Shown here piece after piece: positions 6,729-55,413 of a stretch of DNA of 62,799 bases. The notes under the pieces were generated by a model that searched no databases, was not told the DNA's origin, and saw nothing but the letters and a program-made list of their open reading frames with translations. The translations under genes were made by a program, and so were the position numbers. Positions within the stretch are counted from its first letter, which is position 1; each line of letters starts with the position of its first letter. Origin of the DNA: Lachnospiraceae bacterium (GTDB lineage Bacteria > Bacillota > Clostridia > Lachnospirales > Lachnospiraceae); contig JAGBLN010000054.1 of assembly GCA_017635395.1 (NCBI GenBank), positions 1 to 62,799 of the forward strand, in the 5' to 3' direction.

Positions 6729-6762
6729 ATCCCCCGGATAGAAACATCCGGGGGATTTTTTT
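6729..6762 (+). terminator. groESL terminator
   Basis: Perfect 11-base-pair stem (6729-6739 with 6746-6756), six-base loop, then a T run. Confidence 0.95.
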
Positions 6763-6782: not shown

Positions 6783-6791
6783 TGTTATAAT
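6783..6791 (+). promoter_or_regulatory. extended -10 promoter of the AEP cluster
   Basis: TGTTATAAT, an extended -10 with a perfect TATAAT at 6786-6791. No good -35 is visible at the right distance. It lies about 60 bases before the first phosphonate gene. Confidence 0.6.
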
Positions 6792-6853
6792 AGTATGCGG
6801 TTTTGTGAGAAAACCGTAAAAAGCTTAAGCGATACAGCAGAGAGGAATTTTCT

Positions 6854-7990
6854 ATGTCTGAAAACAAGGTAAAAAGAAATGTGCTTTTGAATCCGGGACC
6901 GTCCACTACTACGGACAGCGTGAAATATGCGCAGATCGTGCCGGATATCTGTCCCAGGGAAAAAGAATTTGCCGGGATAATGGCGCCCATGCGTGACGAT
7001 CTGGTAAAGATCGTGCATGGCGATACTAAGGAGTATACGGCGGTGCTTTTCTGCGGATCAGGCACCATATGCATAGATATAGCGCTCAATTCACTTCTGG
7101 AAGAAGGGAAGAAAGCTCTTGTGGTAAGGAACGGATCCTATTCGGCAAGAGCCTGTGATGTGCTTGAATACTACGGCATGCCTCATGTCATCCTGAATCA
7201 GCCTTATGATGCGCTGCCGGATATGGACGCACTGGAGGAGCTGCTTAGAAAAGAAAACAATATCGGCTATGTTTATATGACACACCACGAGACCGGAAGC
7301 GGCCTGCTCAATCCCATCAGAAAGGCCGGGGAGCTGGCACACAAGTACGGCGCATTCCTTATAACGGACACTACTTCGTCCTATGCGATGATTCCTATAA
7401 ATGTATATGAAGACAATGTGGATTTTTGTATGGCTTCTGCACAGAAGGGCATAATGGGAATGACCGGTCTTTCATACATCATCGGACGCAGGGATATCAT
7501 TGAAAAGTCAAAGGATTTTCCCAAGCACTCTTACTACTGCAATCTTTACAGGCAGTACGCTTATTTCGAGGAGACCGGTGAGATGAATTTCACGCCGCCG
7601 GTACAGACCATTTATGCCGCTAAGCAGGCTCTTATCGAATATTTCGAGGAGGGTGAGCAGGCTAAGTGGGAGAGACATCAGCGTATTATGGCAGCGATCA
7701 GAAAGGGTGCTGACGAGCTGGGATTTAAGGAACTCCTGCCCAGGGAGATACAGTCCGGACTTGTGGCTGCACTTATCTATCCCGATGATGAGAACTGGGA
7801 TTTTGAGAAGATCCATGATTACTGCTATGAAAGGGGCTTCACTATCTATCCCGGAAAGATGCAGGGTAAAGGAACATTCAGGCTCTGTGCCCTTGGTGCG
7901 ATCGATGCTCCCGATATCGAAGCTTTCTGGGAAGTATTCAAAGAAGCTCTTGCGGCGTACGGCATAAAAGTGCCGGTAAAATATAACTGA
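6854..7990 (+). CDS. phnW: 2-aminoethylphosphonate transaminase
   Basis: A 378-residue class V, PLP-dependent aminotransferase of the PhnW/AepZ family, interconverting phosphonoacetaldehyde plus an amino donor with 2-aminoethylphosphonate (AEP). LLNPGPSTTT is the family N-terminus, HHETGSG and DTTSSY line the cofactor pocket, and the Schiff-base lysine is Lys198 in SAQKGIMG. In catabolic loci this enzyme sits beside phosphonatase (PhnX), which is absent here. The neighbours are PEP mutase and phosphonopyruvate decarboxylase, so the biosynthetic direction is more likely. First gene of the cluster, behind an extended -10 promoter, with an AGAGG-type ribosome binding site. Confidence 0.9.
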   Translation: MSENKVKRNVLLNPGPSTTTDSVKYAQIVPDICPREKEFAGIMAPMRDDLVKIVHGDTKEYTAVLFCGSGTICIDIALNSLLEEGKKALVVRNGSYSARACDVLEYYGMPHVILNQPYDALPDMDALEELLRKENNIGYVYMTHHETGSGLLNPIRKAGELAHKYGAFLITDTTSSYAMIPINVYEDNVDFCMASAQKGIMGMTGLSYIIGRRDIIEKSKDFPKHSYYCNLYRQYAYFEETGEMNFTPPVQTIYAAKQALIEYFEEGEQAKWERHQRIMAAIRKGADELGFKELLPREIQSGLVAALIYPDDENWDFEKIHDYCYERGFTIYPGKMQGKGTFRLCALGAIDAPDIEAFWEVFKEALAAYGIKVPVKYN

Positions 7991-8068
7991 AAATTTTGTG
8001 GATATACGAATCTGAGCGTCAAAGCCATATTTGATCAGAACTGCGATTTAGAGAAAGGATAAGTCAAA

Positions 8069-9424
8069 ATGTTACTTTATATCGATCCCGGAACAGGAAG
8101 TATGCTGTTTTCAGTGCTTATAGGTGTCTTTGCGACGCTTGTATTCTTCGCGCAGAAACTGATACTCAATATCAAGTTTGCCATGAGCGGCGGCCGAGCG
8201 CAGAAGGAAATGGCAGAGAAGGTGCCCTACCTTATTTTCTCGGATTCAAAGAGATACTGGAATACCTTTAAGCCCATCTGTGACGCTTTCGAAAAGAGAA
8301 AGACGGAAGTGGTGTACTGGACAGCATCTCCCGACGATCCCGCACTTGAGGAAAAGTACGAGTACATAAAGGCTGAGTTTATAGGCGAGGGTAATAAGGC
8401 TTTCGCAAGGCTTAATCTTGCAAAGGCAAATGTTCTTTTATCTACCACACCGGGACTTGACGTGTACCAGTGGAAGCGTTCAAAAAATGTTGACTGGTAT
8501 GTGCATGTTCTGCATGCTGCAGGCGATCCCGTTATGTACAGGATGTTCGGTCTTGATTTCTACGATGCCGTATTCCTTTCCGGTGAGTTTATGGAGGAAG
8601 AGATTCGCAAGCTGGAAGAATTGCGCGGAATTCCGGCAAAGGAACTTCCCCAGGCCGGCATTCCTTACCTGGATGGAATGAAGGCTCGTCTTGACAGCGA
8701 AAAGGCAGCAGGAGAGGCTGATAATAGTGAAAAGAAAGATGCTAAAAAGCCTACCGTCTTGGTGGCTCCGGCATGGGGACCCAGCGGACTGCTTACGACT
8801 CTCGGTCCTGAGATGCTCACTGCTCTTAAGAATACCGGATACAACATAATAGTCCGTCCCCATCCCCAGTCCATGACTGCGGAGAAGGCGCTTATGGATA
8901 AACTGATGGCAGAGTATCCGGATAGTGATGATTTCCATTGGAATTTTGATAATGACAATTTCAATGTGCTTAAGAATTCCGACATAATGATCTCGGATTT
9001 CTCCGGCGTTATCTACGACTACACACTTGTATTTGACAAGCCTCTTATCTATACGGATACCGGTGCCGGATATAACAAGGATGTGTATGACTGCTGCTGG
9101 CTTGAGGATGAGCCCTGGATGATAAAGAAGCTTGCGGAACTCGGTACCGCACTCAAGAAGGAAGACATCGGAAACGTAAAAGAGATAATAGATAAGGCTC
9201 TCGCTTCCGCTTCCGACAGCAATGCAAGAGATACGGCGCGCTCCGAGACCTGGGTAAATATCGGATCTGCCGGAGAGCATATTGCTGACTATATGATCAA
9301 GAAGGAAGCTTTCCTTGAAGAAGAAGCAAAGAAGAAGGCTGCTGAGCTAGAGGAAGAGATGGCTAAAAAGAAGTCCGGTAAAAAGAAGAAAAAAGACGAC
9401 AATACAGCTGAAGGAGAGAGATAA
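8069..9424 (+). CDS. CDP-glycerol glycerophosphotransferase-like, putative CMP-AEP transferase
   Basis: 451 residues with the GT-B-like fold signature of the TagB/TagF family, which move phospho-alditols from CDP-alditols onto teichoic acids. RPHPQS near residue 265 and SDFSGVIYDYTLVFDKP are the characteristic motifs. One hydrophobic segment near residues 9-31 suggests membrane attachment; the C-terminal 50 residues are a Lys/Glu-rich helix. It sits inside the AEP cluster, and its stop codon abuts the start codon of the PEP mutase fusion. My inference is that the true donor is CMP-AEP rather than CDP-glycerol, with a surface glycan or teichoic acid as acceptor. The family assignment is firm; the substrate is not. 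Confidence 0.8.
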   Translation: MLLYIDPGTGSMLFSVLIGVFATLVFFAQKLILNIKFAMSGGRAQKEMAEKVPYLIFSDSKRYWNTFKPICDAFEKRKTEVVYWTASPDDPALEEKYEYIKAEFIGEGNKAFARLNLAKANVLLSTTPGLDVYQWKRSKNVDWYVHVLHAAGDPVMYRMFGLDFYDAVFLSGEFMEEEIRKLEELRGIPAKELPQAGIPYLDGMKARLDSEKAAGEADNSEKKDAKKPTVLVAPAWGPSGLLTTLGPEMLTALKNTGYNIIVRPHPQSMTAEKALMDKLMAEYPDSDDFHWNFDNDNFNVLKNSDIMISDFSGVIYDYTLVFDKPLIYTDTGAGYNKDVYDCCWLEDEPWMIKKLAELGTALKKEDIGNVKEIIDKALASASDSNARDTARSETWVNIGSAGEHIADYMIKKEAFLEEEAKKKAAELEEEMAKKKSGKKKKKDDNTAEGER

Positions 9425-10732
9425 ATGAAAACTGTTTATACCTGTTTTACCACAGATGTTATCCATGAAGGACACTTAAATATCATCAGGGAAGCGAAAA
9501 AGCTGGGAAAAGTTGTTGTCGGAGCACTCAGCATAGAGGAATCCATCAGATACAATAAATTTCCCATCTTAAGCATAGAGGACAGGATCGCACTGTATAA
9601 AGCAATTCCTGAAGTGGATGATGTAATAGTCCAGGAAAATATGAACTACAGTGATGTGTTTGAAAAGGTTCATCCCGACTATATCGTACACGGGGATAAC
9701 TGGAAGTCAGGCCCGGAAAGCACCATAAGGGAAAATGTCATCGCCCTTATCAAGGCTGCGGGAATGAATCCTGATGAGGCTCTTGTTGAGATACCTTATA
9801 CATATAATGAGACTGTAAAAAAGATAGACAGACAGCTCAGGGAAAAGCAGGCAATGCCTGAATACAGAAGAGGCCGTCTGAGACAGCTCATAGATATGCG
9901 TCCTGTCGTAAGGATAATGGAGGCTCACAGCGGACTCACAGGACTTATCTGCGAGAAGACTGTGGTTGAGAGCGAGGGCAGGCTGGATCAGTTTGACGGC
10001 ATGTGGGTAAGCTCACTTTGCGACAGTACCGACAGAGGCAAACCTGACATAGAGCTTGTGGATATGACCAGCCGTTTAAGGACTATCGATGATATCCTTG
10101 AGGTTACCACCAAGCCAATAATCCTTGACGGAGACACCGGCGGACTTGCCGAACACTTTGTTTATAACGTCCGTACTCTTGAGAGAGTGGGCGTATCGGC
10201 GGTTATCATTGAGGATAAGATAGGCTTAAAGAAGAATTCATTATTCGGAAATGAAGTTGTCCAGACACAGGACACTATAGATAATTTCTCTGCAAAGATC
10301 GCAGCAGGAAAGAAGGTAAGCCTTACGGATGATTTCATGATCATCGCACGTATCGAGAGCCTTATCCTTGAGCAGGGAATGGATGATGCGCTTACCAGGG
10401 CATTCGCATTCAGGGATGCAGGCGCAGATGCGATCATGATACATTCCAGGAAGAAAGATCCTGCGGAGATATTTGAGTTCTGTGACAAGTTCAGAAGCTC
10501 GGATAAGCATACTCCCATAGTGGTGGTACCCACATCCTTCAATTCCGTAACGGAAGAAGTGCTGGCTGAACACGGCGTAAATATTGTCATCTATGCAAAC
10601 CAGCTTATGAGGGCAGCGTTCCCTGTCATGGTATCCACGGCAGAGGACATACTCAGAAACCACAGGGCACTGGAGGTTGATTCCAAGCTTATGCCGTTTA
10701 AGGACATCATCACACTGATAGATGAGCTATAA
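9425..10732 (+). CDS. aepX: cytidylyltransferase-like/phosphoenolpyruvate mutase fusion
   Basis: 435 residues in two domains. Residues 1 to about 130 are a HxGH-type nucleotidyltransferase (HEGH near residue 16, IVHGDNW near 90) like glycerol-3-phosphate cytidylyltransferase. Residues about 150-435 are PEP mutase, which turns PEP into phosphonopyruvate, the committed step that forms the C-P bond. The diagnostic loop EDKIGLKKNS is at 263-272. This fused layout resembles AepX proteins of capsule phosphonate loci. The ATG follows the previous stop codon with no gap, so the two are translationally linked. Whether the N-terminal domain is catalytic or structural is open, because a separate LicC-type nucleotidyltransferase follows. 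Confidence 0.93.
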   Translation: MKTVYTCFTTDVIHEGHLNIIREAKKLGKVVVGALSIEESIRYNKFPILSIEDRIALYKAIPEVDDVIVQENMNYSDVFEKVHPDYIVHGDNWKSGPESTIRENVIALIKAAGMNPDEALVEIPYTYNETVKKIDRQLREKQAMPEYRRGRLRQLIDMRPVVRIMEAHSGLTGLICEKTVVESEGRLDQFDGMWVSSLCDSTDRGKPDIELVDMTSRLRTIDDILEVTTKPIILDGDTGGLAEHFVYNVRTLERVGVSAVIIEDKIGLKKNSLFGNEVVQTQDTIDNFSAKIAAGKKVSLTDDFMIIARIESLILEQGMDDALTRAFAFRDAGADAIMIHSRKKDPAEIFEFCDKFRSSDKHTPIVVVPTSFNSVTEEVLAEHGVNIVIYANQLMRAAFPVMVSTAEDILRNHRALEVDSKLMPFKDIITLIDEL

Positions 10733-10792
10733 GATCTGAAGACATAAAAACGGGAGCGTTCTGAGCTTCCGAAATTAAAAGTGGAGGCTGAA

Positions 10793-11527
10793 ATGGCTGA
10801 AGAAATAGCCGTACTGATGGCAGCGGGACTTGGGTCCCGGATGCGTCCCCTTACGGACAGGATCGCAAAACCTCTTGTTAAGGTACACGGTAAAAGAATG
10901 ATAGACACCGTTATACAGGGGCTTATAACAAGAGGCGTAAAAAAAATATTTGTTGTAACGGGATACAAGAGTGAACAGTTTGAAGTGCTGGAAAAAGAGT
11001 ATTCCGATCCTGAAAAGGGTATCGTCCTGACGGTGCTTAAGAATACGGAGTATGAGACCGTGAACAACATTTCTTCCGTGAAAGCTGCCTGTGATGCAGG
11101 TGCCATCGGCGATGCGGACACTTTCATATGTGAGGCGGATCTTTATATCCCGGATCCTGCCGTGTTTATGGCAAAGCTTGATCATTCCTGTTATTTCGGC
11201 AGGATGGTGGCCGGAAGGTCTGATGACTGGGTATTTGAGCAGGATGAAAACGGACGTATCACAAGAGTCGGAAAGGTCGGCACAGACGTCTATAACATGG
11301 TAGGAATATCCCGGTTTAAAGCGTCGGATGCGGAAATATTAAAGAATGCAATTTACGAGGCCTATGAAAAAGGCGGATACGAAGAGCTCTTCTGGGATGA
11401 TGTGGTAAATGACAATCTGGATAAGCTGGACCTGACAGTTCATCCCATAGCGGACGGAGCCATAACGGAGATTGATTCCATTGAGGAACTGGCAGCGGTG
11501 GATCCGGACTGGAGCAAAGAAAAATAA
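10793..11527 (+). CDS. LicC/PntC-type nucleotidyltransferase, probable CTP:AEP cytidylyltransferase
   Basis: 244 residues, a nucleotidyltransferase of the LicC/PntC/GlmU-N type. MAAGLGSRMRPLT is the nucleotide-binding loop, followed by KPLVKVHGKRMID, and CEADLYI provides the metal-binding acidic residues. In this setting the likely reaction is CTP + AEP to CMP-AEP, as described for PntC, giving the donor for the CDP-glycerol-type transferase upstream. CTP:phosphocholine cytidylyltransferase is the alternative. I start at the ATG at 10793, using TGGAGG at 10782-10787; a GTG at 10781 would sit on that site. Confidence 0.8.
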   Translation: MAEEIAVLMAAGLGSRMRPLTDRIAKPLVKVHGKRMIDTVIQGLITRGVKKIFVVTGYKSEQFEVLEKEYSDPEKGIVLTVLKNTEYETVNNISSVKAACDAGAIGDADTFICEADLYIPDPAVFMAKLDHSCYFGRMVAGRSDDWVFEQDENGRITRVGKVGTDVYNMVGISRFKASDAEILKNAIYEAYEKGGYEELFWDDVVNDNLDKLDLTVHPIADGAITEIDSIEELAAVDPDWSKEK

Positions 11528-11619
11528 TATAAACTTCCCACATGTAGTCGGTGGGAAGCAGAACGATGAATTTCTGAATTATATAACAGCCCCGCATGGT
11601 TGCGGCAGAGAGGTGAAAT

Positions 11620-12738
11620 ATGACGGCAGAAAAATTAACACAGATTTTAGGAGCAGATTTCTATGCAGGTGTTCCCGACAGCCAGCTGAAGGCATTGTGC
11701 AATTTCCTGATGGACAGGTATGGCATAGATGCCACCCGTCATGTGATCGCAGCCAACGAGGGCAATGCGGCTGCACTGGCAGCAGGTTATCATCTTGCAA
11801 CCGGAAAAGTTCCTGTTGTATATATGCAGAACAGCGGTGAGGGAAATATCATCAACCCTCTGGCATCACTTTTAAATGACAAGGTTTACGGGATCCCGAT
11901 GATCTTTGTGATCGGATGGAGAGGCGAGCCCGGAGTGCATGACGAGCCCCAGCATATCTACCAGGGTATAGTGACCGTTAAGCTTATGGAGGATATGGAT
12001 GTACGTACCTTTGTAGTAGATAAGGAATGCACTGAGGAGACGCTTACAGCTGCCATGAAGGATTTTGAAAAGGATCTGGCAGCAGGCAAGCAGGTGGCCT
12101 TTATCATAAAGAAGGGCGCTCTTTCCTATGACGGAAAAGTGGATTATAAGAATGAATATACCATGAACAGGGAGGAAGCAATCGCACACATCACGGCAGT
12201 AAGCGGTGATGATCCGATAGTTTCCACCACCGGCAAGATCAGCAGGGAGCTTTTTGAAAATCGTACTGCAGGCGACGGTGAGCATGGCAGGGATTTCCTG
12301 ACGGTAGGCTCCATGGGGCACTGCTCATCCATAGCCCTGGGCGTGGCTGTGAACAAGCCTGAAAAAACAGTCTGGTGCATAGACGGAGACGGCGCAATGC
12401 TTATGCACATGGGGGCAATGGCAGTAGTAGGAAAATTCGCGCCGAAGAATCTTATACATATTGTTATAAATAATGAGGCACATGAGACTGTGGGCGGCAT
12501 GCCTACTGCAGCATCTTCCGTAGATGTTGTTGCTGTGGCAAAGGCCTGCGGATATCCCAATGCCGTAAGCGTTTCGGATTTTGACAGCCTTGATGCAGAG
12601 CTTAAGAAGGCAAAGGCTGCCGGTGAGCTCAGCCTTATAGAAGTAAAGTGCCAGGTGGGGGCAAGGGATGACCTGGGAAGACCTACCACCACGGCAATGG
12701 AGAATAAAGAGAATTTTATGAAATATCTGAGTAAATAA
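11620..12738 (+). CDS. aepY: phosphonopyruvate decarboxylase
   Basis: A 372-residue thiamine-diphosphate enzyme that decarboxylates phosphonopyruvate to phosphonoacetaldehyde, pulling the unfavourable PEP mutase reaction forward. The N-terminal half has ANEGNAAALAAGYHLATG with the catalytic Glu region, and the C-terminal half has the ThDP/Mg motif GDGAMLMHMGAM followed by NN. The length matches single-chain Ppd/AepY. AGAGGTG precedes the ATG. A 92-base gap separates it from the previous gene and holds a hairpin with CTTCCCAC and GTGGGAAG arms (about 11535-11558), without a T run. It is the last AEP gene. Confidence 0.92.
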   Translation: MTAEKLTQILGADFYAGVPDSQLKALCNFLMDRYGIDATRHVIAANEGNAAALAAGYHLATGKVPVVYMQNSGEGNIINPLASLLNDKVYGIPMIFVIGWRGEPGVHDEPQHIYQGIVTVKLMEDMDVRTFVVDKECTEETLTAAMKDFEKDLAAGKQVAFIIKKGALSYDGKVDYKNEYTMNREEAIAHITAVSGDDPIVSTTGKISRELFENRTAGDGEHGRDFLTVGSMGHCSSIALGVAVNKPEKTVWCIDGDGAMLMHMGAMAVVGKFAPKNLIHIVINNEAHETVGGMPTAASSVDVVAVAKACGYPNAVSVSDFDSLDAELKKAKAAGELSLIEVKCQVGARDDLGRPTTTAMENKENFMKYLSK

Positions 12739-44531: not shown

Positions 44532-45008
44532 ATGACAGAGCAGTATCTAAAAAAACTCATCGAAAATATGGAACAGAAAAAAGCTGTGCTTGTGTCCATT
44601 AAGGAGAGTACTGCAAAACAGGCGAAGGCCATGCAAGCAGATAATCCTGATTGGAAGGCTTTTGATGCGATGCTGGATGAAAAAGGTGAGCTGATCGATA
44701 AGCTAAATTCTCTTGACGATGCATTCAATGCAATCTTTGATCGGATAAAAGATGATCTTTTAGCCAATAAGGCAAAATATAAAACCGAGATCACCCACCT
44801 GCAGGAACAGATAAGGGAAGTGACTTCGCTCAGTACCTCAATACAGGCTGATGAACTACGCAACAGGGATCTTGTAACTAAACGTATAAACGAAAGCCGA
44901 CAGAAAATACGACAGGACAGAAAGACCATCAATGTAACTGGCAAGTACTACAATGCCATGAACAAGATTAATCTGATCGATCCGCAGCTGATGGATACTA
45001 AGAAGTAA
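44532..45008 (+). CDS. FliT/FlgN-like flagellar chaperone (putative)
   Basis: 158 residues, nearly all predicted helix with coiled-coil character (YLKKLIENMEQKKAVLVSIK, LLANKAKYKTEITHLQEQI). Position directly after fliS, and size, suggest a FliT- or FlgN-type export chaperone; sequence alone is not decisive. Start taken as the ATG at 44532 after GATAGAGAG. Its 3' end overlaps the convergent Maf gene by 11 bases. Confidence 0.65.
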   Translation: MTEQYLKKLIENMEQKKAVLVSIKESTAKQAKAMQADNPDWKAFDAMLDEKGELIDKLNSLDDAFNAIFDRIKDDLLANKAKYKTEITHLQEQIREVTSLSTSIQADELRNRDLVTKRINESRQKIRQDRKTINVTGKYYNAMNKINLIDPQLMDTKK

Positions 45009-46503
45009 AGTTATGCGTTCCTTTGATCCTGGCACCGCAGTCTGAAAGGTTGTAGACCTTAACATTAGAAGACTGGGAGAGTCTGTTTTCTATCCAACTC
45101 AAGTATGAATATAATTGTTCACTGGTGTAAACGGTACCACCGTTTACATCTTTTATTTTTATCAGATTTTCCTTTTCTATGCCGCCCTCGTCGATGGTTC
45201 CCTGGGCATGAGTTTTACCGCCGGGGTATGCCATATCGACGCCGGCGAGATATAGTTCCTGGGCACCAAATTGAAGAGCAATGTCTATTGCAAGAGTGGT
45301 GACACTTCCTCCAGTATTGAATAGAGGAAAACTGTGGGCATTTGCATAATCCTCCGCAGGCGGATAGCCCTTTTGCAGTGCAAGAAACTTTTTACCGGAG
45401 TAGTCTGATGCAAAGCGCCAGTATGCTGTTGAATCAATTATCATTGGAATGTCGCATTCTTCAATTCCTTCGATGTGTTTATATGTTCTCTCCTGTGCAT
45501 CCATTACTATGACATAGTCAGCCTTTATCCCATGCTCCATTAATTTCTTTAAGACTGTTGATACACAGACTATGAGTGTATCAGTTTTTTCGGCTTGAGT
45601 CTTTAGGTATTTAAGGTTTCTGTCAAGGGAAGGCCCTGCAGCTATAATATAAGTTTTCTTTTGAAAAAAATTATCCCTGATTTCTGAAATATTGTGGGGG
45701 CAATTTTTGATGTTATTGTTAAAATTAATTATAAGTCTTCTCTTTAATTGATAATAAGAATTCCAGCTTATGTAGAATCTTCGTAATGAAGCTCTTTGTT
45801 CTGAATCTGCAATTTTAAGCAGGGAAGGATAATGGAATAGGATTCCCGTATTCTCGTCGGATAGGCATCTGCAAAAATCAGCGCAGGTAGGATCATTATA
45901 TATTTTGATTCGGTCATTTGAAAAGAGACCGAAATTGTCGTTTGCCTTTACGTATTCAATCAATTCTGTATGAGGTTCAAAGACTTTGATACGGAGTGTG
46001 CCTAAAGATGCTTTATACAAGGCGTCTATGTGATATCCGAGACCAAGGCCAAATACAACATACTCTGAATATTTTTCTTCATAATACAGGTTGATCATTT
46101 GTCTTGCTTCATCCATGGGATTGCAGTTAGAATGAAGGTATATTTTTCCGACATTATAGTAAAGCGTCATTGCACCGGAAGAAGTTGGTTCTAAAGTGTA
46201 ATTATCTATGTTAATACTTTCTGCGGGCGTTATTTGTGATTTAATGAACGGGATGAAGGAATCCTCAAGAATATCTGCATACAGAATCATGTCGCCGACT
46301 TCGAGTGCGTTAGACATAGCGTTTAAGCATGTTAATAAGGAATCATAGTCATCGCCTGGATTAAAGATAGTCTCAGGAAGAGCTTTGATTTTTTCAGAAA
46401 GAATTTTTATTTTTAATGAGGCCTCGTGGTAATTTTGGCAACGTATATAGCTGATGATTTCCTGTGATACGTCTATGATCTTAAATGGGATAGTGTTTTC
46501 CAT
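44998..46503 (-). CDS. Maf/DUF115 motility-associated protein (flagellin nonulosonate transferase-like)
   Basis: 501 residues. The core (about 260-440) is the DUF115/MptE-like domain: IIAAGPSLDRNLKYL, VIVMDAQERTYKH, NTGGSVTTLAIDIALQFGA and GVDMAYPGGKTHA. Maf proteins attach sialic-acid-like sugars to flagellin serines and threonines. It is the last gene of a minus-strand run that converges on the fliS operon. No nonulosonic acid synthesis genes are in the window, so the sugar must be made elsewhere or differ. Confidence 0.88.
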   Translation of the reverse strand: MENTIPFKIIDVSQEIISYIRCQNYHEASLKIKILSEKIKALPETIFNPGDDYDSLLTCLNAMSNALEVGDMILYADILEDSFIPFIKSQITPAESINIDNYTLEPTSSGAMTLYYNVGKIYLHSNCNPMDEARQMINLYYEEKYSEYVVFGLGLGYHIDALYKASLGTLRIKVFEPHTELIEYVKANDNFGLFSNDRIKIYNDPTCADFCRCLSDENTGILFHYPSLLKIADSEQRASLRRFYISWNSYYQLKRRLIINFNNNIKNCPHNISEIRDNFFQKKTYIIAAGPSLDRNLKYLKTQAEKTDTLIVCVSTVLKKLMEHGIKADYVIVMDAQERTYKHIEGIEECDIPMIIDSTAYWRFASDYSGKKFLALQKGYPPAEDYANAHSFPLFNTGGSVTTLAIDIALQFGAQELYLAGVDMAYPGGKTHAQGTIDEGGIEKENLIKIKDVNGGTVYTSEQLYSYLSWIENRLSQSSNVKVYNLSDCGARIKGTHNFTS

Positions 46504-46559
46504 AAATTACTCCGTTATTATTCCACTGACTGTTTGGAATGGTTTTATAGGCTACAGTT

Positions 46560-47735
46560 TTATCTTAATTCTGCGATATTTATCATTTCTGCGACACGTA
46601 TATTGAAGCTATGGTATTCCTGTATTTTTTTATACCCGGAATACGCGATGGCTAAGCGCTCATCATCGTGTTCCAGATAGTATCCGGCCTTCTCGATGAG
46701 ATCACTTTTGCTTTCAAAATAGACAAAATCGGTACCGGGGATGAAATAATCCTCAAAATCTGCCTGATAGTTTGTGAGCAAAAAACCACCGCAACCCATT
46801 ATATCGAATGCTCGAAGTGGGATAGCATTTACTATGCTGCGGAGCGTGATATTTAGATTTATTTTTGCACACTTTATTGCTTTAGGGGAGTCCTTATAGT
46901 ATTCCACTGAACCTCTGTTGTCTACAAGAGGGAGCGTGGGAGTTTTCTCGGGGGTATAGAGGGTGACGTTGTATTTTTGAGAAAGTGCAGCTACCAGTTC
47001 TTGACGTTCCATGCCTGTTATCTTTCTGGCAACAAAATAATTGGCCAGTACCCATGAAGCATCTTCTATGCCGTCTCCACTTTCATACATGGGGCAGACC
47101 TTCTGGATGTTTTTAACTATCTCGGGAGTGAGGCTTTTTTCAAGTATCGATGCACCATATATCTGTTTCTGGATGCTTATGATTCCGTCGAGGTATCCGG
47201 AGGTATAGTCATCCAAACCGTTAAAATGTCTGATCAGATTGTGCTTGGCCTCAGTATACATGGAGCCAATGAGTGCAATGTCAGCGGAATATTTATTTCT
47301 TTCGGTATCGCTTATTACTACGCTGTCGAAGTATTCCGTGTCCGCTGCCATAGGAAGGTAGTAAACAGTTTCAGCACCCTTTCTGCGTAAGTTTATATAT
47401 TCATTTTTGTCAAAAACAAAGGCGTAATTGGTGGGAAACTCGATTGTCTTTGAATACAAAAGGATATAAGGACTGTCATAGGTCCATGATATGTATTTCA
47501 CCCTGCAAGCGGCAGCAGCAATTGCAGCCACTGGGAAATAGTTAAAAGAGAATACGGCATCTGCTTTGTTGTCAAGAATGGCTTTAACTACCAGGTTTGC
47601 AAGATTTTCGCTATTTTTAGTGCTCTCTTTCTTAATTGGAAAGTCAAGCTCACACAGATCAAAGCCAGCAAGCTTAAATGCCTTCCTTATGTGGAAATAT
47701 CCGAAACAGTCCCATTTTAATGTGAGAATTTTCAT
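46560..47735 (-). CDS. DUF3880/CgeB-type glycosyltransferase (copy 1)
   Basis: 391 residues. An N-terminal DUF3880-like half (MKILTLKWDCFGYFHIRKAF, SWTYDSPYIL) and a C-terminal GT-B half with ITLRSIVNAIPLRAFDIMGC, GGFLLTNY and a terminal helix. The C-terminal half matches the plus-strand copy at 57.5 kb (DVMGCGAFVLTPY there), showing duplication within the island. Donor and acceptor sugars unknown; flagellin is the likely substrate by context. Confidence 0.82.
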   Translation of the reverse strand: MKILTLKWDCFGYFHIRKAFKLAGFDLCELDFPIKKESTKNSENLANLVVKAILDNKADAVFSFNYFPVAAIAAAACRVKYISWTYDSPYILLYSKTIEFPTNYAFVFDKNEYINLRRKGAETVYYLPMAADTEYFDSVVISDTERNKYSADIALIGSMYTEAKHNLIRHFNGLDDYTSGYLDGIISIQKQIYGASILEKSLTPEIVKNIQKVCPMYESGDGIEDASWVLANYFVARKITGMERQELVAALSQKYNVTLYTPEKTPTLPLVDNRGSVEYYKDSPKAIKCAKINLNITLRSIVNAIPLRAFDIMGCGGFLLTNYQADFEDYFIPGTDFVYFESKSDLIEKAGYYLEHDDERLAIAYSGYKKIQEYHSFNIRVAEMINIAELR

Positions 47736-47765
47736 AATTGGATGACCCTTTTACAAAATCTTTAA

Positions 47766-48923
47766 TCAGTTCTTATTGCTGCTATAGGATTTATACACCC
47801 AATCCTCCGGTTTGGCCTTTCCTTTAGGAGCGGTATCCCAGGGATAAACAAAAGTGTCGGAAGGATTACAATATCTGCAGCTTTCTATAGGTGCATGGAG
47901 TTTTTCTAAGATGGTAACGCCATCTATAGATGTATCATGAATGTTAATTATATCGGATTTGCCTGCAACCATGTTTTTTCCATAAAGCTTTGAAAAGCGT
48001 GGAAGGATGTAGGGCATTATACAATTGGATAGTGTACCTTCACGGAGAAATGTGCAGTGAGTTACATCACATTTTGAATAAGCTTCAGCAGGAATCTGAG
48101 TGCCGTCAGGATCTATGCAGGTTCTGAATACGCATATTGGATCTGAAACAAGACAGTTGACGCCGTAAAAACAGCATAGCGCTTTTATCTGTTTCAATTT
48201 TTGGGATGAAGGTGGATAAAGACTGATATTAAAACTGCAGTGATTATCGCGCATTGTACGCAGCAGATGTTCGTAGTCTTTATTCAGTAGCAGGCCGTTG
48301 GTTACCACATGTATATCCGCATCTGGGAATATTTCTCTGGTCACATCTATAAAATCAGGAAGTTGTTCGTTAAGAAGTGGTTCGCCGCCCATGAGACGGA
48401 TTCGCTCGATTCCCCAAAAGAGTTCATGTAAGCGCTCCATATCTTTTATATATTGATCTAAGTTTGCCAGTCTAGGTTCTGCTATATTAGAAAGGTGTGC
48501 ACAACCTTTGCAGTTTAAATTGCAGTGGTCGGCAAGATGAAATTCCAGATAATCAAGTCTTGGCTTTGGGGTGTCAATGCGTTCAAGATAGTCGAAAGTG
48601 AACTCGTCGGCAGAAAGTTCATAGTAATAATGAGGGAGATAATATAGTTCAAAAACTCCCTGGAGCATCAGTTTACATGCAAGCTGGTGGAGCTTGCTGT
48701 GATGAACGGCGAGGATGACGACATGGATATCGCCTTTTTGGTACATTTCGCCTATTTTTTCAGTGGTGTATACGGGAAGCCCATCCTGTACTTCTATATC
48801 GCCAGGGATGTCCGTACCATAACAGACGAATTTAAATCCTTCAGGCTTAAGAATATCGTAAGCGGTTTTTAGAAATACACCGTAAAGCTCGGTGCCCCAG
48901 ATAGCTATGCGGATATCACCCAT
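47766..48923 (-). CDS. radical SAM enzyme with N-terminal nucleotide-binding-like domain
   Basis: 385 residues. Residues 1 to about 110 look like a Rossmann-type domain (IRIAIWGTELYGVFL). The radical SAM core has CNLNCKGC (CX3CX2C), RLMGGEPLLN and HVVTNGLLL. The C-terminal third has further cysteines (CDVTHC, ESCRYC), possibly a SPASM-like auxiliary cluster. It sits between two glycosyltransferase genes, so modification of a sugar, nucleotide-sugar or glycosylated flagellin is suggested. The reaction cannot be named. Confidence 0.85.
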   Translation of the reverse strand: MGDIRIAIWGTELYGVFLKTAYDILKPEGFKFVCYGTDIPGDIEVQDGLPVYTTEKIGEMYQKGDIHVVILAVHHSKLHQLACKLMLQGVFELYYLPHYYYELSADEFTFDYLERIDTPKPRLDYLEFHLADHCNLNCKGCAHLSNIAEPRLANLDQYIKDMERLHELFWGIERIRLMGGEPLLNEQLPDFIDVTREIFPDADIHVVTNGLLLNKDYEHLLRTMRDNHCSFNISLYPPSSQKLKQIKALCCFYGVNCLVSDPICVFRTCIDPDGTQIPAEAYSKCDVTHCTFLREGTLSNCIMPYILPRFSKLYGKNMVAGKSDIINIHDTSIDGVTILEKLHAPIESCRYCNPSDTFVYPWDTAPKGKAKPEDWVYKSYSSNKN

Positions 48924-48938
48924 ATTTTTATCCCCTTA

Positions 48939-49967
48939 TTATATGCCGTTCTTCTGGATCAGCTGTGCCATATTTGCAAAATCTTCTTTGGTAACATTCA
49001 GATAAATAAAGCCCAACAGGAGTTTTTGAAATTCGGTGAAGCCCTGATCGTAATATTTGTTATTTTCTACGCTGTTTATTCTGTCCCTGACCGTTTCCTG
49101 CAATAAGCGAAATAGAGAATATTGTGGCGTCGAGTAACGCAGACAGATCAGCTTCAAAAAGTCCAGGTAACAGTTGTGTAGAAAATCAAACTCTACTGCA
49201 TCACTGTATTCTTCATGATAGCCATTCGATACCATGTAGTCCCATTTTAACAGCTGTACTGTAAGAAAATCAATGTGGTGCAGGGAATCTGATGCAAGTA
49301 TGGTAGAATTTTCATTTACAAAATAGTGATAGAGCGGGAGCTCCAGTTTGCAGTAATGCTCAATCTTGCAGGACAGCATTCCACACCAGAGATTATCTTC
49401 GTAGGTTACTTCTTCAGGAAAAAGCAGATTATTTTCAAGGATAAACTGTCTTTTTATTAGCCGTCCCCACACCTGGGGTTCAGCGGAGGTAAAACGGATC
49501 TGCTCGGCCCGCATTTCTTCGCTGCATATTCGGATTTCCCGGAATTGAAAATCAGGATCAGTTGTTGTTGATGGTGTTGGTTGTCTACCAAAATCACGAA
49601 CATGGCCGCAGGTAACCATCTCTGCACCGGTTTTAACAGCTACGTTATACATTATCTTAAGACAGTTTAAATCTATCCAGTCATCTGAATCCACATATGT
49701 AATATAAGGGGAGTCAGCATATTCGATGGCAAGATTTCTTGCTGCTCCCTGCCGTCTGTTTTTGTCGCAATGGATGACGGCTATACTTTCGGGATATTTG
49801 GCCTCCCATGCAAGCAGTCTGTCATATGTTGTATCCGTGGAAGCGTCATCGACACATATGATTTGCAGGTTTTCGATTCCTATGGTTTGGTAAACTAGGG
49901 ACTCCAGGCATCTGTCGATATATGGGGCTACATTATAGCAGGGTATGATAATGCTTATTTGAGTCAT
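48939..49967 (-). CDS. family 2 glycosyltransferase, RQGxARN family
   Basis: 342 residues. ISIIIPCYNVAPYIDRCL, CVDDASTDTT, RRQGAARNLA and the metal-binding YVDSDDW form the GT-A domain. The helical C-terminus has EEVTYEDNLW and HYFVNENSTI, shared with the paralogues at 33.0, 51.3 and 54.4 kb. The ATG at 49967 is chosen because AGGAGC precedes it. First gene of the minus-strand run, 15 bases before the radical SAM gene. Confidence 0.86.
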   Translation of the reverse strand: MTQISIIIPCYNVAPYIDRCLESLVYQTIGIENLQIICVDDASTDTTYDRLLAWEAKYPESIAVIHCDKNRRQGAARNLAIEYADSPYITYVDSDDWIDLNCLKIMYNVAVKTGAEMVTCGHVRDFGRQPTPSTTTDPDFQFREIRICSEEMRAEQIRFTSAEPQVWGRLIKRQFILENNLLFPEEVTYEDNLWCGMLSCKIEHYCKLELPLYHYFVNENSTILASDSLHHIDFLTVQLLKWDYMVSNGYHEEYSDAVEFDFLHNCYLDFLKLICLRYSTPQYSLFRLLQETVRDRINSVENNKYYDQGFTEFQKLLLGFIYLNVTKEDFANMAQLIQKNGI

Positions 49968-50242
49968 GGACTGCTCCTGTTTGTTATGGTAAACGGCAGA
50001 ATCACCTGTCATTTACTATAAATCTTTCATCCTTATTATAAACGATAATGGATGTTTTAATGCTAAGAATTTTAATGCTGTAGTTAAACTGAATATTTGT
50101 TTTCATCTGGTATGCTTTTGGTATATTAGAAAAGCTTCAAATCTGCTAAAATTGCAGATGAATAGTTGTTTATATGCGGAAATTGATTCCACAATGAAAT
50201 TGAATGTATGGATTTGCTGAAATCCTAAATGAGGATGTGTAC
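49968..50242 (+). promoter_or_regulatory. divergent intergenic region of the glycosylation island
   Basis: 275 AT-rich bases between divergent operons. TATAAT is seen on the minus strand (50035-50040), and TATATT on the plus strand near 50121-50126 with a weak TTTTCA upstream. A small palindrome, ATCTGC/GCAGAT, lies at 50141-50159. No sigma-28 consensus seen and no gene. Confidence 0.45.
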
Positions 50243-51307
50243 ATGCCTGGCGAAAAAAAAATCAGCATTATAGTTCCGTGCCATAATTCAGCTGATACTC
50301 TTGATAGAACATGGAAATCGATAGAGGATCAGACTATGCCGTTAGAGGATATAGAAGTGATTTTTGTGGATGATGCTTCTGATGATGACGGAAAGACGTG
50401 GCAGCTTCTAAATGAAATAGAAAAAATAAAGCCGGAAAGTGTGATAATAATTCAGCTGGAGAAAAACCTTCGTCAGGGAGGGGCACGCAATGCGGCGCTT
50501 AAGTATGTCTCCGGTGAATATATCATGTTTCTTGATTCTGATGACACATATGTAAAGGAGTGCTGTCAGGAATTATATGATATTGCCGAAATGTATAATG
50601 CGGATATTATTCAATTCAGGCATTCCATGGTCTCTGATGGCGTGGCTTCGGAGAGTGTGCCTGTTAATGCGGAAACGAGTGGAAGAGTACTTGTGTATGA
50701 GTTGAGGGAAAATGAAGATGTTCGCAGAGCTTTTTTAACTATGCAGGTAGCAGGCTTCAATTGTAATTGTACCAGTAAAATGTATTCATCGGCACTTGTT
50801 AGAGAATGCGGAGCTCTTTATGCAGAAAATGTAATATATGAGGAGCCTAAGTTTGTATATCCTGTGTTTCTTTACGCAGACAGAATCGTTTTAGCAGATA
50901 AAGCTTATTATGAATATCATTGGCATATGGGGTCTACCATGACAAGCCTTTTAGGCCAAAGACTTATGGAGCATCCAAAAGTTCAGCTAGAGCTCATGGC
51001 AGATATCATAGACAGACAGGAAATATATGAAAAATACAGAGAAGAAGTTGATTATTATTTTTTTAGAACTTTTTATGTGGAAACCTTGGTTTTCATGTAT
51101 GTGAATAAAGGCTATGTATCAGTTGAGGCGATGTCTTATATGCAGGAAATATGTAAAAGGCTTATACCGAATATCGCAAATAACAGGTATATAATCGCAG
51201 ATGACGACATGTTGTGGTTTGTGGAAACGCTTCAGAAAGTGTTTAGTGACGAGACAGTAATATTCAATATAGGAAAAGAAGCGGCAGGGAGATTGATAAA
51301 TGACTAA
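50243..51307 (+). CDS. family 2 glycosyltransferase, RQGxARN family
   Basis: 354 residues. ISIIVPCHNSADTLDRTWKS, FVDDASDDDGKTW, LRQGGARNAA and the metal-binding FLDSDDTY. The C-terminal half contains GSTMTSLLGQRLMEHPKVQL, nearly the same as in the 56.4-kb gene (GSTMTSELGTHLMEHPYVQL), so these two are close paralogues. I start at the ATG at 50243 after GAGG; an ATG at 50204 lacks a site. It overlaps the next gene by eight bases. Confidence 0.86.
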   Translation: MPGEKKISIIVPCHNSADTLDRTWKSIEDQTMPLEDIEVIFVDDASDDDGKTWQLLNEIEKIKPESVIIIQLEKNLRQGGARNAALKYVSGEYIMFLDSDDTYVKECCQELYDIAEMYNADIIQFRHSMVSDGVASESVPVNAETSGRVLVYELRENEDVRRAFLTMQVAGFNCNCTSKMYSSALVRECGALYAENVIYEEPKFVYPVFLYADRIVLADKAYYEYHWHMGSTMTSLLGQRLMEHPKVQLELMADIIDRQEIYEKYREEVDYYFFRTFYVETLVFMYVNKGYVSVEAMSYMQEICKRLIPNIANNRYIIADDDMLWFVETLQKVFSDETVIFNIGKEAAGRLIND

Positions 51308-52343
51308 GCATAAAATAAGCGTTATAATTCCTTGCTATAATGTATCGAAATATATAGATCGCTGCATGCAGTCACTGGTTGATCAAAGTTTCGGTATAAA
51401 CAATATGGAGGTTATATGTGTTGATGATGCATCAACGGACGATACTGCAGATAAACTTCTACGATGGGAAAAAAAATATCCGGATAATATAATGATAGTC
51501 GAGTCCAAATCTAATGGGAGACAGGGAGCAGCCAGAAATATAGGATTAGGTTATTCATCTGCCGATTGGGTGTGTTTTGTGGATTCGGATGACTGGGTGG
51601 AGCCCGACTATTTGGAAATTTTTTATGCGCATACGGAACTTGATGGAATTGACATGGTGTGCTGTGATAGTGGGAGAGATCCGCATGTGGATTTGTGTCA
51701 TTTTAGCGAGTCTGAAAGAGAAACTGCGAAACAACCGTCATTTTTTGTAATTAGTGATATAAACCAGCGAAAAGAACTTATTCATTATAATAAAATAGCG
51801 TTTACTGCATATGGCAAACTTATTAACAGAGAATTTCTTTTGGAAAATGATATATTTTTTCCAGAAGGGGTGGTGTATGAGGATGTTTACTGGGGCAGTC
51901 TCATAAACTATTACGTGAAAAAAGTGTATTTTACCGGGAAAAGACTATATCATTATTTTGTAAATGGAGATTCTACTGTTTTAAACAAAGGGGCAGATTA
52001 CCATATTGATATGCTTACTGTAAATTCTATGCTTTGGCGTGAAGTGATATTGAGGGGATTTTGGGATGACTACCGGGATGAAATAGAATTTGAGTTTTTT
52101 TACAGTAATATCTTAGCTTTTACCAAGATTATCGTATTACGTTTTGAAACTCCGCCTTATTCGCTTTATCGATTGTTAAATATAATGGCTGTTACACATG
52201 TGCCGGAGTATTGGAAAAATCCATATTATCAATCAGAGAGCCTTCCGGAAATTCATCGCCTGATAATAGATGGTGTGTATATGGGGTTGGATAAGGAAAG
52301 CTTTGTGCAGTGGGCTGAGAATATTAAGCAGATAGGACTATAA
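51300..52343 (+). CDS. family 2 glycosyltransferase, RQGxARN family
   Basis: 347 residues. ISVIIPCYNVSKYIDRCMQS, CVDDASTDDT, GRQGAARNIG and FVDSDDW. The C-terminal half has PEGVVYEDVYW and HYFVNGDSTVL, close to the genes at 48.9 and 54.4 kb. The start lies inside the previous gene, so translation is coupled. AGGGAG just upstream serves as ribosome binding site. Acceptor presumably flagellin or its glycan. Confidence 0.86.
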   Translation: MTKHKISVIIPCYNVSKYIDRCMQSLVDQSFGINNMEVICVDDASTDDTADKLLRWEKKYPDNIMIVESKSNGRQGAARNIGLGYSSADWVCFVDSDDWVEPDYLEIFYAHTELDGIDMVCCDSGRDPHVDLCHFSESERETAKQPSFFVISDINQRKELIHYNKIAFTAYGKLINREFLLENDIFFPEGVVYEDVYWGSLINYYVKKVYFTGKRLYHYFVNGDSTVLNKGADYHIDMLTVNSMLWREVILRGFWDDYRDEIEFEFFYSNILAFTKIIVLRFETPPYSLYRLLNIMAVTHVPEYWKNPYYQSESLPEIHRLIIDGVYMGLDKESFVQWAENIKQIGL

Positions 52344-52345
52344 TT

Positions 52346-53176
52346 ATGGATGATAATGTTTTCGTGAGCGTGATAATTCCTACTTATAATCGTTGTGATT
52401 ATATTAGTGCTTCTATAGATAGCGTGTTGAAACAGACATGTGAGAATTTAGAATTGATTGTAGTCGATGATGCGTCAGAAGATGATACTGCACAGGTGGT
52501 GACATCTATAAGGGATGAAAGAATAAAATATTATCGCTTGAATAAAAATTCTGGTGCTGCAGCTGCAAGGAATTTTGGTGTCGATAAGGCAAAATATGAC
52601 TTGATTGCATTTAATGACTCTGATGATAGGTGGCGCCCGGAAAAATTGGAAAAACAAATACAAAGATTTAATGAAATTCCGGAAGCAGTATTGGTATATT
52701 CAGCGTATGAGTGTAAAAAAGATGGGCTCAATAGAAGGGTTCCTCCTGAGGAGTATCCATGTACAATGCTTGAGGGAGACATATACAGGTATTTATTGAA
52801 GAATAACACGGTTGGAGCACCTACAATTCTTATAAGAAGGGATGTATTTGAAAAAGCAGGCGAGTTTGACAGCGCATATCAGGCTCTTGAAGATTGGAAT
52901 TTGGTATTGAAGGCGGCTAAATTTGGAAAATTTGCCTATGTTGATGAAGTGCTGCTTGATGTTACATTGCTTCAGGACGGAGTAAGCTCGTCAGGGGCAA
53001 ATTATTTTAATGGCCGTTGCCGGCTGCTTGCAGACTATATGGAAGATATACAGGCTTATGGATTATTTGATGATGTATGCGGTGATATTCTAAAAAGAGC
53101 GGAAAGTGAAGGTGTACTTGATCACGTAAAGAAAATGATGATGCTTTGTTTGCAGGAAAAAATGGGAAAGCTGTAA
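52346..53176 (+). CDS. family 2 glycosyltransferase (ordinary type)
   Basis: 276 residues. VSVIIPTYNRCDYISASIDS, VVDDASEDDTA, SGAAAARNFG and FNDSDDRW. It lacks the RQGxARN signature and the long helical tail of its neighbours, so it is a separate branch of GT2. It begins two bases after the previous stop and ends before two tandem hairpins, making it the last gene of this three-gene run. Confidence 0.86.
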   Translation: MDDNVFVSVIIPTYNRCDYISASIDSVLKQTCENLELIVVDDASEDDTAQVVTSIRDERIKYYRLNKNSGAAAARNFGVDKAKYDLIAFNDSDDRWRPEKLEKQIQRFNEIPEAVLVYSAYECKKDGLNRRVPPEEYPCTMLEGDIYRYLLKNNTVGAPTILIRRDVFEKAGEFDSAYQALEDWNLVLKAAKFGKFAYVDEVLLDVTLLQDGVSSSGANYFNGRCRLLADYMEDIQAYGLFDDVCGDILKRAESEGVLDHVKKMMMLCLQEKMGKL

Positions 53177-53180
53177 AAAT

Positions 53181-53222
53181 CGAAAATCTGATGGGATTTT
53201 CGTGATTTTACCATAAAATCAC
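53181..53222 (+). terminator. tandem hairpins between the GT run and flagellin
   Basis: CGAAAATC (53181-53188) with GATTTTCG (53195-53202), then GTGATTTTA (53202-53210) with TAAAATCAC (53214-53222). Both are perfect. No long T run follows, but they probably insulate the flagellin gene. Confidence 0.6.
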
Positions 53223-53232
53223 CAAAAAGAAC

Positions 53233-53261
53233 TTGCAAATATGCTTTTCCTTTGGTAATAT
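53233..53261 (+). promoter_or_regulatory. possible sigma-A promoter of flagellin
   Basis: TTGCAA (53233-53238), 17 bases, TAATAT (53256-53261). It may add basal expression to the sigma-28 promoter downstream. Confidence 0.5.
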
Positions 53262-53320
53262 TTAAGTGTAGTGGAGATTGAAAAAGTTCTAAAATCTCGA
53301 AAAATTTTTTAAAAATGGTA

Positions 53321-53347
53321 TTAAGTATCGGGAAATTGTTCCGATAT
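53321..53347 (+). promoter_or_regulatory. sigma-28 promoter of flagellin
   Basis: TTAAGTAT (53321-53328), 11 bases, TCCGATAT (53340-53347), close to consensus. Predicted start near 53354, giving a leader of about 80 bases. Confidence 0.85.
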
Positions 53348-53390
53348 ATTTAATACAAGGGGTTCGAAAGGATCCAAATCACTAATAACT

Positions 53391-53406
53391 GCGGCACGGA
53401 TGTCGC
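53391..53406 (+). promoter_or_regulatory. candidate CsrA-binding hairpin in the flagellin leader
   Basis: GCGGCA (53391-53396) pairs with TGTCGC (53401-53406) around the loop CGGA. The core CACGGAUGU fits the known CsrA preference for ACANGGANGU with GGA in a loop. A second GGA overlaps the ribosome binding site (AAGGAGG, 53421-53427), the same two-site arrangement known for Bacillus hag. Confidence 0.7.
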
Positions 53407-53434
53407 AATACAACATTTTCAAGGAGGAAAAGTT

Positions 53435-54253
53435 ATGGTAGTACAGCACAATTTAACAGCAATGAACAGCAACAGAATGTTAGGTCTCACGACCAGCTCT
53501 CAGGCTAAGTCAACCGAGAAGTTATCTTCTGGTTACAGAGTTAACAGAGCAGCAGATGATGCAGCAGGTCTTGCTATAAGTGAGAAGATGCGTCGTCAGG
53601 TTAAGGGCTTAACACAGGCAAGCCGCAATGCACAGGATGGTATTTCCTGCGTACAGACAGCAGAAGGTGCTCTTACTGAAGTTCATGATATGCTTCAGAG
53701 AATGAACGTTCTGGCTAACCAGGCTTCTAACGACACGATGTCAACTGCAGACCGCAAGTATCTGGATCAGGAAGTTCAGGCTCTTGTATCTGAAATTGAT
53801 CGTGTACAGAGCACAACAACCTTCAACGAGAAGAATCTGCTTGATGGAACATTCTCAGGAAAGAATCTTCAGGTAGGTGCAGAGTCTGGCCAGTTTATCA
53901 GCATCAGCATTGCTAACATGAAAGCTTCCAGCATTGGTCTTTCAAGCGTATCTGTATCTGGTGACAGCAACGTAAATGCACAGTCTGCAATCACACAGAT
54001 TAAGAACGCTCTTGCAAGCGTATCTTCTCAGAGAGCAGATCTCGGTGCTGTTCAGAACAGACTTGAGCACACAATCAAGAACCTTGACAACGTTGTTGAG
54101 AACACAACAGCAGCTGAGTCTCAGATCCGTGATACGGATATGGCTTCCGAGATGGTTGCATTCTCGAATGCAAACATTCTTGCACAGGCAGGTACTTCAA
54201 TGCTCGCTCAGGCAAATCAGTCCAACCAGAACGTTCTTTCACTGCTTGGCTGA
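53435..54253 (+). CDS. flagellin
   Basis: 272 residues, the short filament subunit. The N-terminal D0/D1 ([38 protein letters not shown]) and C-terminal D1/D0 ([30 protein letters not shown]) are typical; the central region is only a short loop, so no D2/D3 domains. Ser/Thr-rich stretches near residues 160-190 are likely glycosylation sites. [14 protein letters not shown] resembles the D1 region seen by TLR5. Codon usage is that of a highly expressed gene, unlike its AT-rich neighbours. AAGGAGG upstream. Confidence 0.98.
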
Positions 54254-54283
54254 TAGCAGCTTCATTAAACAAAGCTACCAAAG

Positions 54284-54312
54284 AAAGGGCTGTCCGAAAG
54301 GACAGCCCTTTT
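54284..54312 (+). terminator. flagellin terminator
   Basis: Perfect 12-base-pair stem (54284-54295 with 54300-54311) with a GAAA loop and a short T tail. Confidence 0.93.
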
Positions 54313-54384
54313 ACCGTTATAACCTATAACAACGTAAGTTTTTTTATTATAAGATTTGGGTTTTTTAGCGAGGAGAGAGCAAAA

Positions 54385-55401: not shown

Positions 55402-55413
55402 GTTATTAAGAGT

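Follow-up and report, generated by a model that had tools for sequence, protein, structure and literature searches.

We analyzed a 62,799-nucleotide stretch of DNA from a Lachnospiraceae bacterium (assembly GCA_017635395.1, contig JAGBLN010000054.1; hereafter the window) and describe here an operon of five plus-strand open reading frames at positions 6854-12738. The genes encode, in order, a 2-aminoethylphosphonate (AEP) transaminase (AEPT), a TagF/TarL-like phosphotransferase that we call GPT, a phosphoenolpyruvate (PEP) mutase (PepM), a LicC/PntC-type cytidylyltransferase (PntC) and a phosphonopyruvate decarboxylase (Ppd). The operon probably makes AEP and activates it to CMP-AEP, with GPT transferring AEP at the cytoplasmic face to an acceptor of the envelope. 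In this scheme, PepM, Ppd and AEPT would convert PEP to phosphonopyruvate, phosphonoacetaldehyde and finally AEP, and CMP-AEP would be formed mainly by PntC, with a Fom1-like domain fused to PepM acting as a second, possibly altered, cytidylyltransferase. GPT, anchored in the membrane at its N-terminus, would then move AEP from CMP-AEP onto the acceptor. By analogy, YidC/sulfatase proteins may act outside on a membrane-linked envelope molecule that receives the product or on which it is assembled.

An operon predicted to make and activate AEP

The three AEP-making enzymes all score above curated NCBIfam cut-offs, which bears out the biosynthetic route proposed in an initial annotation of this DNA. 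AEPT (6854-7990), a transaminase of the PhnW/AepZ type, matches TIGR03301 with 425.9 bits (cut-off 360.8) and contains an SAQKG motif whose lysine, K198, is presumably catalytic. The PEP mutase domain occupies residues 152-433 of PepM (9425-10732), matches TIGR02320 with 407.9 bits (cut-off 319.55) and carries the EDKxxxxxNS motif as EDKIGLKKNS at 10211-10240. Ppd (11620-12738) matches TIGR03297 with 461.2 bits (cut-off 312.5). GPT lies at 8069-9424 and PntC at 10781-11527, and the intergenic gaps across the five genes are 78, 0, 48 and 92 bases, with PepM starting immediately after the GPT stop codon. The operon is flanked by groEL on one side and apt/relA on the other. All five genes annotated initially between 6783 and 12738 are real, but the operon itself starts at 6854, after groEL and a terminator-like hairpin of 12 pairs (6729-6756, -) that separates the two. 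This hairpin has the longest stem in a scan of the region that returned 7 terminator-like sites versus 4.9 expected in shuffled sequences; a promoter scan was uninformative (11 sites versus 10.8 expected).

The same gene order is found in three relatives: Lachnospiraceae bacterium AB2028 (locus L084, genome G200), which is the nearest named genome among the best 80 of 460 GPT relatives, G004 of the same genus (L050), and G201 (L085). Together with the window we refer to these as the window's clade, L084 and L085 having been placed by identity; a GPT tree also groups these two with the window (support 100/100). GPT lies between AEPT and PepM in all four members. The AB2028 operon proteins are 93-99% identical to those of the window, and the order is kept there through groEL, apt and relA. 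The ratio of nonsynonymous to synonymous substitution rates (dN/dS) against AB2028 is 0.009-0.051 across six domains of the operon, indicating that these genes are maintained. The window genome (G000) is a 2.1-Mb assembly in 58 contigs that is 72.6% complete, so absences from it are weak evidence; the assembly of the congener G004 has a listed completeness of 100%.

PepM is a two-domain protein. The initial annotation recognized the mutase correctly and missed the fused N-terminal domain, a PF01467 cytidylyltransferase at residues ∼1-135 with HEGH at residues 14-17. Its best solved relative is the Fom1 cytidylyltransferase (5x3d, E = 1.9e-21). We aligned 44 such domains, namely those of the window and Fom1 and 42 from fetched loci, omitting matches of 100 amino acids or less. 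Of the HxGH histidines the first is present in all 44 rows and the second in 42; the H, G and W of the HGDxW stretch are kept in every row and its D in 39. In two Treponema loci of the Spirochaetales (L088 and L092), GPT adjoins a fused cytidylyltransferase-PepM in which the second HxGH histidine is Ile.

The separate cytidylyltransferase, PntC, has LicC as its best PDB match (1jyk, E = 4.6e-26) and also matches PntC from Treponema denticola (6pd1, 2.7e-9). The acidic residues at the LicC D107 and E216 positions are present as D120 and E230, and Asp120, Asp206 and Glu230 align with LicC Asp107, Asp192 and Glu216. At the position of LicC Asp105 the window enzyme has Glu118, which corresponds to Glu104 of T. 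denticola PntC, a residue that sits beside the AEP amine (PMC6697681). PepM loci supplied 20 further PntC-like rows to an alignment that omitted matches under 180 amino acids, and Glu occupies this position in 19 of them, the exception being a LicC-choline kinase fusion (L055). We found no PF01633 choline kinase match in the window genome, at its 72.6% completeness, or in G004. On the pattern at Glu118 and the lack of a choline kinase match in either genome, AEP would be the likeliest PntC substrate and a phosphocholine (LicABC) pathway is disfavored. Our analysis supports the initial suggestion that this enzyme can make CMP-AEP.

Across the family, PepM exceeds its cut-off in 21 of 200 genomes. 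We examined 22 PepM neighborhoods, not counting the window and including one (G129) below the cut-off. AEPT is present in six, each of which also has a fused cytidylyltransferase-PepM and a separate PntC-like gene. Nine others have an iron alcohol dehydrogenase match instead of AEPT, and in eight of these PepM is a 668-685-amino-acid frame with a MobA-like segment followed by the cytidylyltransferase and mutase domains (L066:8212-12511, L059-L064 and L067; Pfam-confirmed for L066 only). These dehydrogenase-type clusters should, from their context, make hydroxyethylphosphonate; the argument is one of context because the L066 dehydrogenase scores 146 bits against TIGR03405, well short of the cut-off of 424. 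Neither AEPT nor an iron alcohol dehydrogenase was found within the fetched stretch in the remaining 7 of the 22 loci.

The GPT family and its YidC-sulfatase partners

GPT is a protein of 451 amino acids with one N-terminal hydrophobic segment. It belongs to PF04464 (41 bits, cut-off 22.1), and profile searches match Cps3D (8qoy, 2.6e-8) and TarL (8va1, 3.7e-4). We collected relatives by a scan with a GPT alignment, using one genome per species and keeping the best 80 of 460. Forty-five of the 80 loci were chosen for an alignment and one (L148) was dropped for a stop, leaving 45 rows with the window included. H149 and H265 (within RPHPQ) are invariant in all 45. The starting motif YIDPGTGS is also invariant, partly by construction, because it was one of two scan patterns; it differs in 1 of 10 rows of a smaller alignment.

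The surroundings of these genes are distinctive. A sulfatase-family segment is found in 67 of the 80 loci and a YidC-like segment in 65, and the two generally occur in one protein: 82 of 84 frames of at least 650 amino acids with a sulfatase segment also hold a YidC-like segment. Forty-four loci are flanked by 5 kb or more on each side, and the sulfatase segment is present in 40 of them. Twelve of these 44 are phosphonate clusters, 9 encode a fusion of a cytidylyltransferase with a CobD-like enzyme (NTPAT), 11 have another cytidylyltransferase and 12 have none. Over all 80 loci there are 23 phosphonate clusters, of which 21 have PepM and 2 have just other genes of the pathway. The distance from GPT to the nearest phosphonate gene is less than 900 bp in 20 of the 23, and this gene is on the same strand as GPT in 22. 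Fourteen have an AEPT match, four an iron alcohol dehydrogenase (L097 has both) and six neither, and because just 14 have AEPT we refer to phosphonate rather than AEP clusters. A GPT tree of 84 rows, built from the 80 loci, the window and 3 outgroup sequences, shows the phosphonate-linked copies dispersed, with at least eight changes between phosphonate and NTPAT labels among 35 rows that were sampled by similarity to the window GPT and counted without a shuffle control.

A YidC-sulfatase protein, searched for with a query from G049 at E values up to 1e-100, is present in 8 of the 200 family genomes. All eight fall among the nine genomes with a close GPT (Fisher p = 1.6e-13, uncorrected for kinship), and the ninth, G052, has a YidC-like neighbor in which no sulfatase match was found. 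The window genome encodes two YidC-sulfatase fusions, on contigs C54 and C8; the C54 copy, for which the domains were confirmed with Pfam, reaches the contig end. The same genome encodes a protein of 1224 amino acids (G000:C34, L081:7426-11100) in which YidC (PF02096), Glyphos_transf (PF04464) and Sulfatase (PF00884) domains all exceed their gathering scores. More distant YidC-Glyphos_transf fusions adjoin AEPT/PepM in G135 (L053) and G190 (L054). In an alignment of 81 rows (32 of the 60 loci available), the sulfatase half shows a DNT...DH motif, preceded by conserved Asp and Thr residues. Its profile matches are weak; the best is a phosphonate monoester hydrolase (2w8s, 7.8e-6), followed by several sulfatases and a lipoteichoic acid (LTA) synthase (4uoo, 1.3e-3). 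A transfer activity of the sulfatase half is proposed tentatively, by analogy with the last of these.

The NTPAT proteins point to a second possible head group. Their C-terminal half resembles the threonine-phosphate-decarboxylase-like enzyme 6oux (E = 9.8e-45), which we take to decarboxylate phosphoserine; TIGR01140 is matched below its cut-off (183 of 291 bits). One such fusion of a LicC-like cytidylyltransferase to a CobD-like decarboxylase adjoins GPT at L073:7269-9074. From their domains, the NTPAT proteins, including this one, may convert phosphoserine to CDP-ethanolamine, which would be the phosphate equivalent of CMP-AEP, and we hypothesize on this basis that the GPT family would serve either head group, AEP or phosphoethanolamine.

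A tentative and rather speculative extension is that the three modules form a relay that passes small phosphate or phosphonate head groups from the cytosol to the surface. The cytidylyltransferase would make CMP-AEP, CMP-hydroxyethylphosphonate or CDP-ethanolamine; GPT would load the head group onto a membrane lipid, which the YidC-like domain would flip; and the sulfatase-family domain would transfer the head group to an outer acceptor. We include the flipping step because YidC from E. coli is reported to scramble lipids in vitro (preprint PMC10491306). AEP would act here as a hydrolysis-resistant analogue of phosphoethanolamine, the one being exchanged for the other by a swap of donor genes while the machine is kept. 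Such a relay could account for all of the modules, and the 1224-amino-acid protein of the window genome joins the three in one chain.

Alternative donors, transferases and acceptors

Several observations weigh against the proposed scheme. The 80 loci are those most similar to the window GPT, a choice that may favor phosphonate-linked copies, and 12 of the 44 well-flanked loci have no recognized cytidylyltransferase nearby. The sulfatase segment is missing from four of these 44 (L084, L085, L088 and L145), so that the window's clade is among the exceptions; no YidC-sulfatase gene adjoins GPT in L084, L085 or L050. The overlap of close GPT with PepM is modest, with PepM in 5 of 9 genomes versus 16 of 191 (p = 8e-4, or 0.02 without G000 and G004, both uncorrected for kinship), and near PepM we found LicD in 8 of 22 loci versus GPT or YidC-GPT in 4 (L050, L053, L054 and L067). 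The window PntC resembles LicC more than it does T. denticola PntC, and the same has been stated of the AEP-specific enzyme of Atopobium rimae (PMC6697681). Compared with T. denticola PntC (Glu104/Glu196) and LicC (Asp105/Asp192), Glu118 is PntC-like and Asp206 is LicC-like. Where no PepM was detected at the locus, 8 of 18 PntC-like rows have this Glu as well. Finally, Asp37 of the fused cytidylyltransferase, kept in 40 of 44 rows including Fom1, is Ile in exactly the four members of the window's clade. Decay of the domain is not supported despite this loss: its dN/dS against AB2028 is 0.031, indicative of purifying selection, so the domain may have taken on a different role instead of losing its function.

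In the window genome and AB2028 the sole TagD-like match is a 435-amino-acid frame, the length of the cytidylyltransferase-PepM fusion, and scores below the cut-off; a separate TagD was found in neither genome, the former being 72.6% complete. CMP-AEP would for this reason be the likeliest GPT donor. It is quite improbable that GPT is instead an ordinary CDP-glycerol glycerophosphotransferase and that AEP decorates a poly(glycerol phosphate) teichoic acid, the shared polymer explaining the place of GPT in the operon. Membership of PF04464 and the profile matches to TagF-like Cps3D and to TarL would fit such an enzyme, as would the GPT of G052, which lies beside a TagD-like gene (L075). A TagD in G201 scores above the cut-off (204.6 bits) and a TagD-like gene in G004 below it (92.9 bits), so CDP-glycerol would be available in these two relatives, which favors the teichoic acid reading and counts against ours. 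These two genes adjoin a LicD match at ∼1 kb or less (G004:C1:223482-224702 and G201:C11:143711-144873) and are not near GPT; their products may thus serve LicD, which suggests a separate CDP-alcohol/LicD pair. G004 has just two PF04464 proteins, both of the GPT type. Its second GPT (L072:3798-8015) is beside large uncharacterized proteins of 702 and 681 amino acids and a YfhO-family protein, and the 702-residue protein has no Pfam match. The initial annotation had named a CDP-glycerol-type transferase as the obvious candidate for attaching AEP to a teichoic acid or glycan. GPT remains the likeliest transferase, whereas the classical wall teichoic acid reading is weakened by the lack of a separate TagD here and in AB2028 (two relatives have one), by the GPT type of both G004 proteins and by the tie to YidC-sulfatase proteins.

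Our second-ranked explanation, which we consider unlikely, is that a LicD-family phosphotransferase (55414-56367, +) is the AEP transferase, that its acceptor is a flagellin glycan and that GPT does something else. LicD is the transferase paired with LicC in phosphocholine systems, and the only LicD detected in the window genome (PF04991, 112.5 bits, cut-off 22.6; NF045866, 66.7 bits, below the cut-off of 225) is one gene from a reading frame that we take, from its sequence features, to encode flagellin (53435-54253, +). The flagellin glycosylation island around them (44998-59728), in the right half of the window, also encodes an MptE-like (Maf) protein, a radical SAM protein and glycosyltransferases, two of which were confirmed with Pfam; the remainder we presume to be glycosyltransferases from their sequence. 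LicD occurs in 8 of the 22 PepM neighborhoods, and in AB2028 it is close to a flagellin 91% identical to that of the window (L208). In G177, a single methyltransferase-like gene separates PepM from two flagellin genes that precede it, and two LicD genes come directly after PepM; Ppd is on a different contig. This locus (L055:4619-18310), which also encodes a DUF6564 protein and the LicC-choline kinase fusion, is a candidate genetic source of phosphonate on flagellin. AEP has been reported on the flagellin glycan of Clostridium difficile, where no pepM was found and the origin of the flagellar AEP was raised as a question (PMC8861647), so the initial remark that phosphonate-decorated envelopes are little described in gut or rumen Firmicutes needs qualifying. 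Against a flagellin acceptor, LicD is ∼43 kb from the operon and its AB2028 counterpart is only 56% identical, compared with 93-99% for the operon proteins; the two LicD genes of G004 (contig C23) have no flagellin match within the 17 kb fetched; and a flagellin match is nearby in just 2 of 22 PepM loci. It is the presence of GPT, and not LicD, inside the operon, together with the much faster divergence of LicD between the window and AB2028, that places this explanation second. Most improbable of all is that the operon serves AEP breakdown or a diffusible phosphonate rather than envelope tailoring. Members of the PhnW/AepZ family, to which AEPT belongs, can presumably run catabolically, but PepM and Ppd build a C-P compound, no further small-molecule tailoring gene was seen in the operon, and two cytidylyltransferase domains and a TagF-like transferase are present instead. 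No PhnX was found above the cut-off in the window genome (72.6% complete), which has one weak match (33.3 of 220 bits), and G004 has none at all. AEP catabolism by PhnWX is accordingly rejected, and the absence of PhnX-type degradation recorded initially is supported at this cut-off.

Beyond the flagellar island, a large open reading frame at 61085-62680 resembles what we take to be an IS66-family transposase.

Significance and comparison with known systems

The steps that follow AEP synthesis have been called enigmatic and the transferase left open (Rice et al. 2019, PMC6697681). The operon and its relatives provide a specific, testable candidate transferase and candidate partner proteins for this tailoring, and the operon would provide a bacterial origin for AEP in the gut and rumen. 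The occurrence of either phosphonate genes or a CobD-like/cytidylyltransferase fusion beside a single transferase family also offers a natural comparison between the use of phosphonates and of phosphate esters. We did not meet the GPT family as a phosphonate transferase, its YidC-sulfatase partner, the donor swap or a three-module relay of this kind in our searches of open-license PMC articles, as judged mostly from titles and the openings of abstracts.

The logic of AEP activation as CMP-AEP is already known from one actinobacterium and one spirochaete (Rice et al. 2019, PMC6697681), and the window is a new occurrence of it. The Pnt clusters of A. rimae, Olsenella uli and T. denticola share ppm, ppd, aept and a LicC-like PntC with the window, where Ppd and the AEP transaminase likewise accompany ppm. 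They differ in coming from other phyla and in having LicD-like phosphotransferases or glycosyltransferases named in their neighborhoods (PMC6697681); the main text of that report contains none of the terms CDP-glycerol, Firmicutes and Clostridi. Two cytidylyltransferases in one cluster are also a known arrangement: the same study finds a nucleotidyltransferase fused to ∼60% of Ppm enzymes and reports clusters in which a second, unfused one accompanies the fusion. Fom1 of the Streptomyces fosfomycin pathway, whose substrate is hydroxyethylphosphonate (PMC6697681), resembles the window PepM in its domain order, HxGH and HGDxW. The window domain differs in having Ile at the Asp37 position and in sitting within an AEP cluster with a second cytidylyltransferase.

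The polymerases TagF, TarL and Cps3D have PF04464 in common with GPT, both by Pfam and by profile. What sets GPT apart is its short length, its hydrophobic segment at the N-terminus and the genomic setting of its relatives, which occur close to YidC-sulfatase proteins and to phosphonate or CobD-like/cytidylyltransferase genes. The partner protein likewise keeps the DNT...DH motif of LTA synthase-type PF00884 phosphotransferases; unlike LTA synthase, it is fused to a YidC-like PF02096 domain, and its profile is nearer to the hydrolase and sulfatases.

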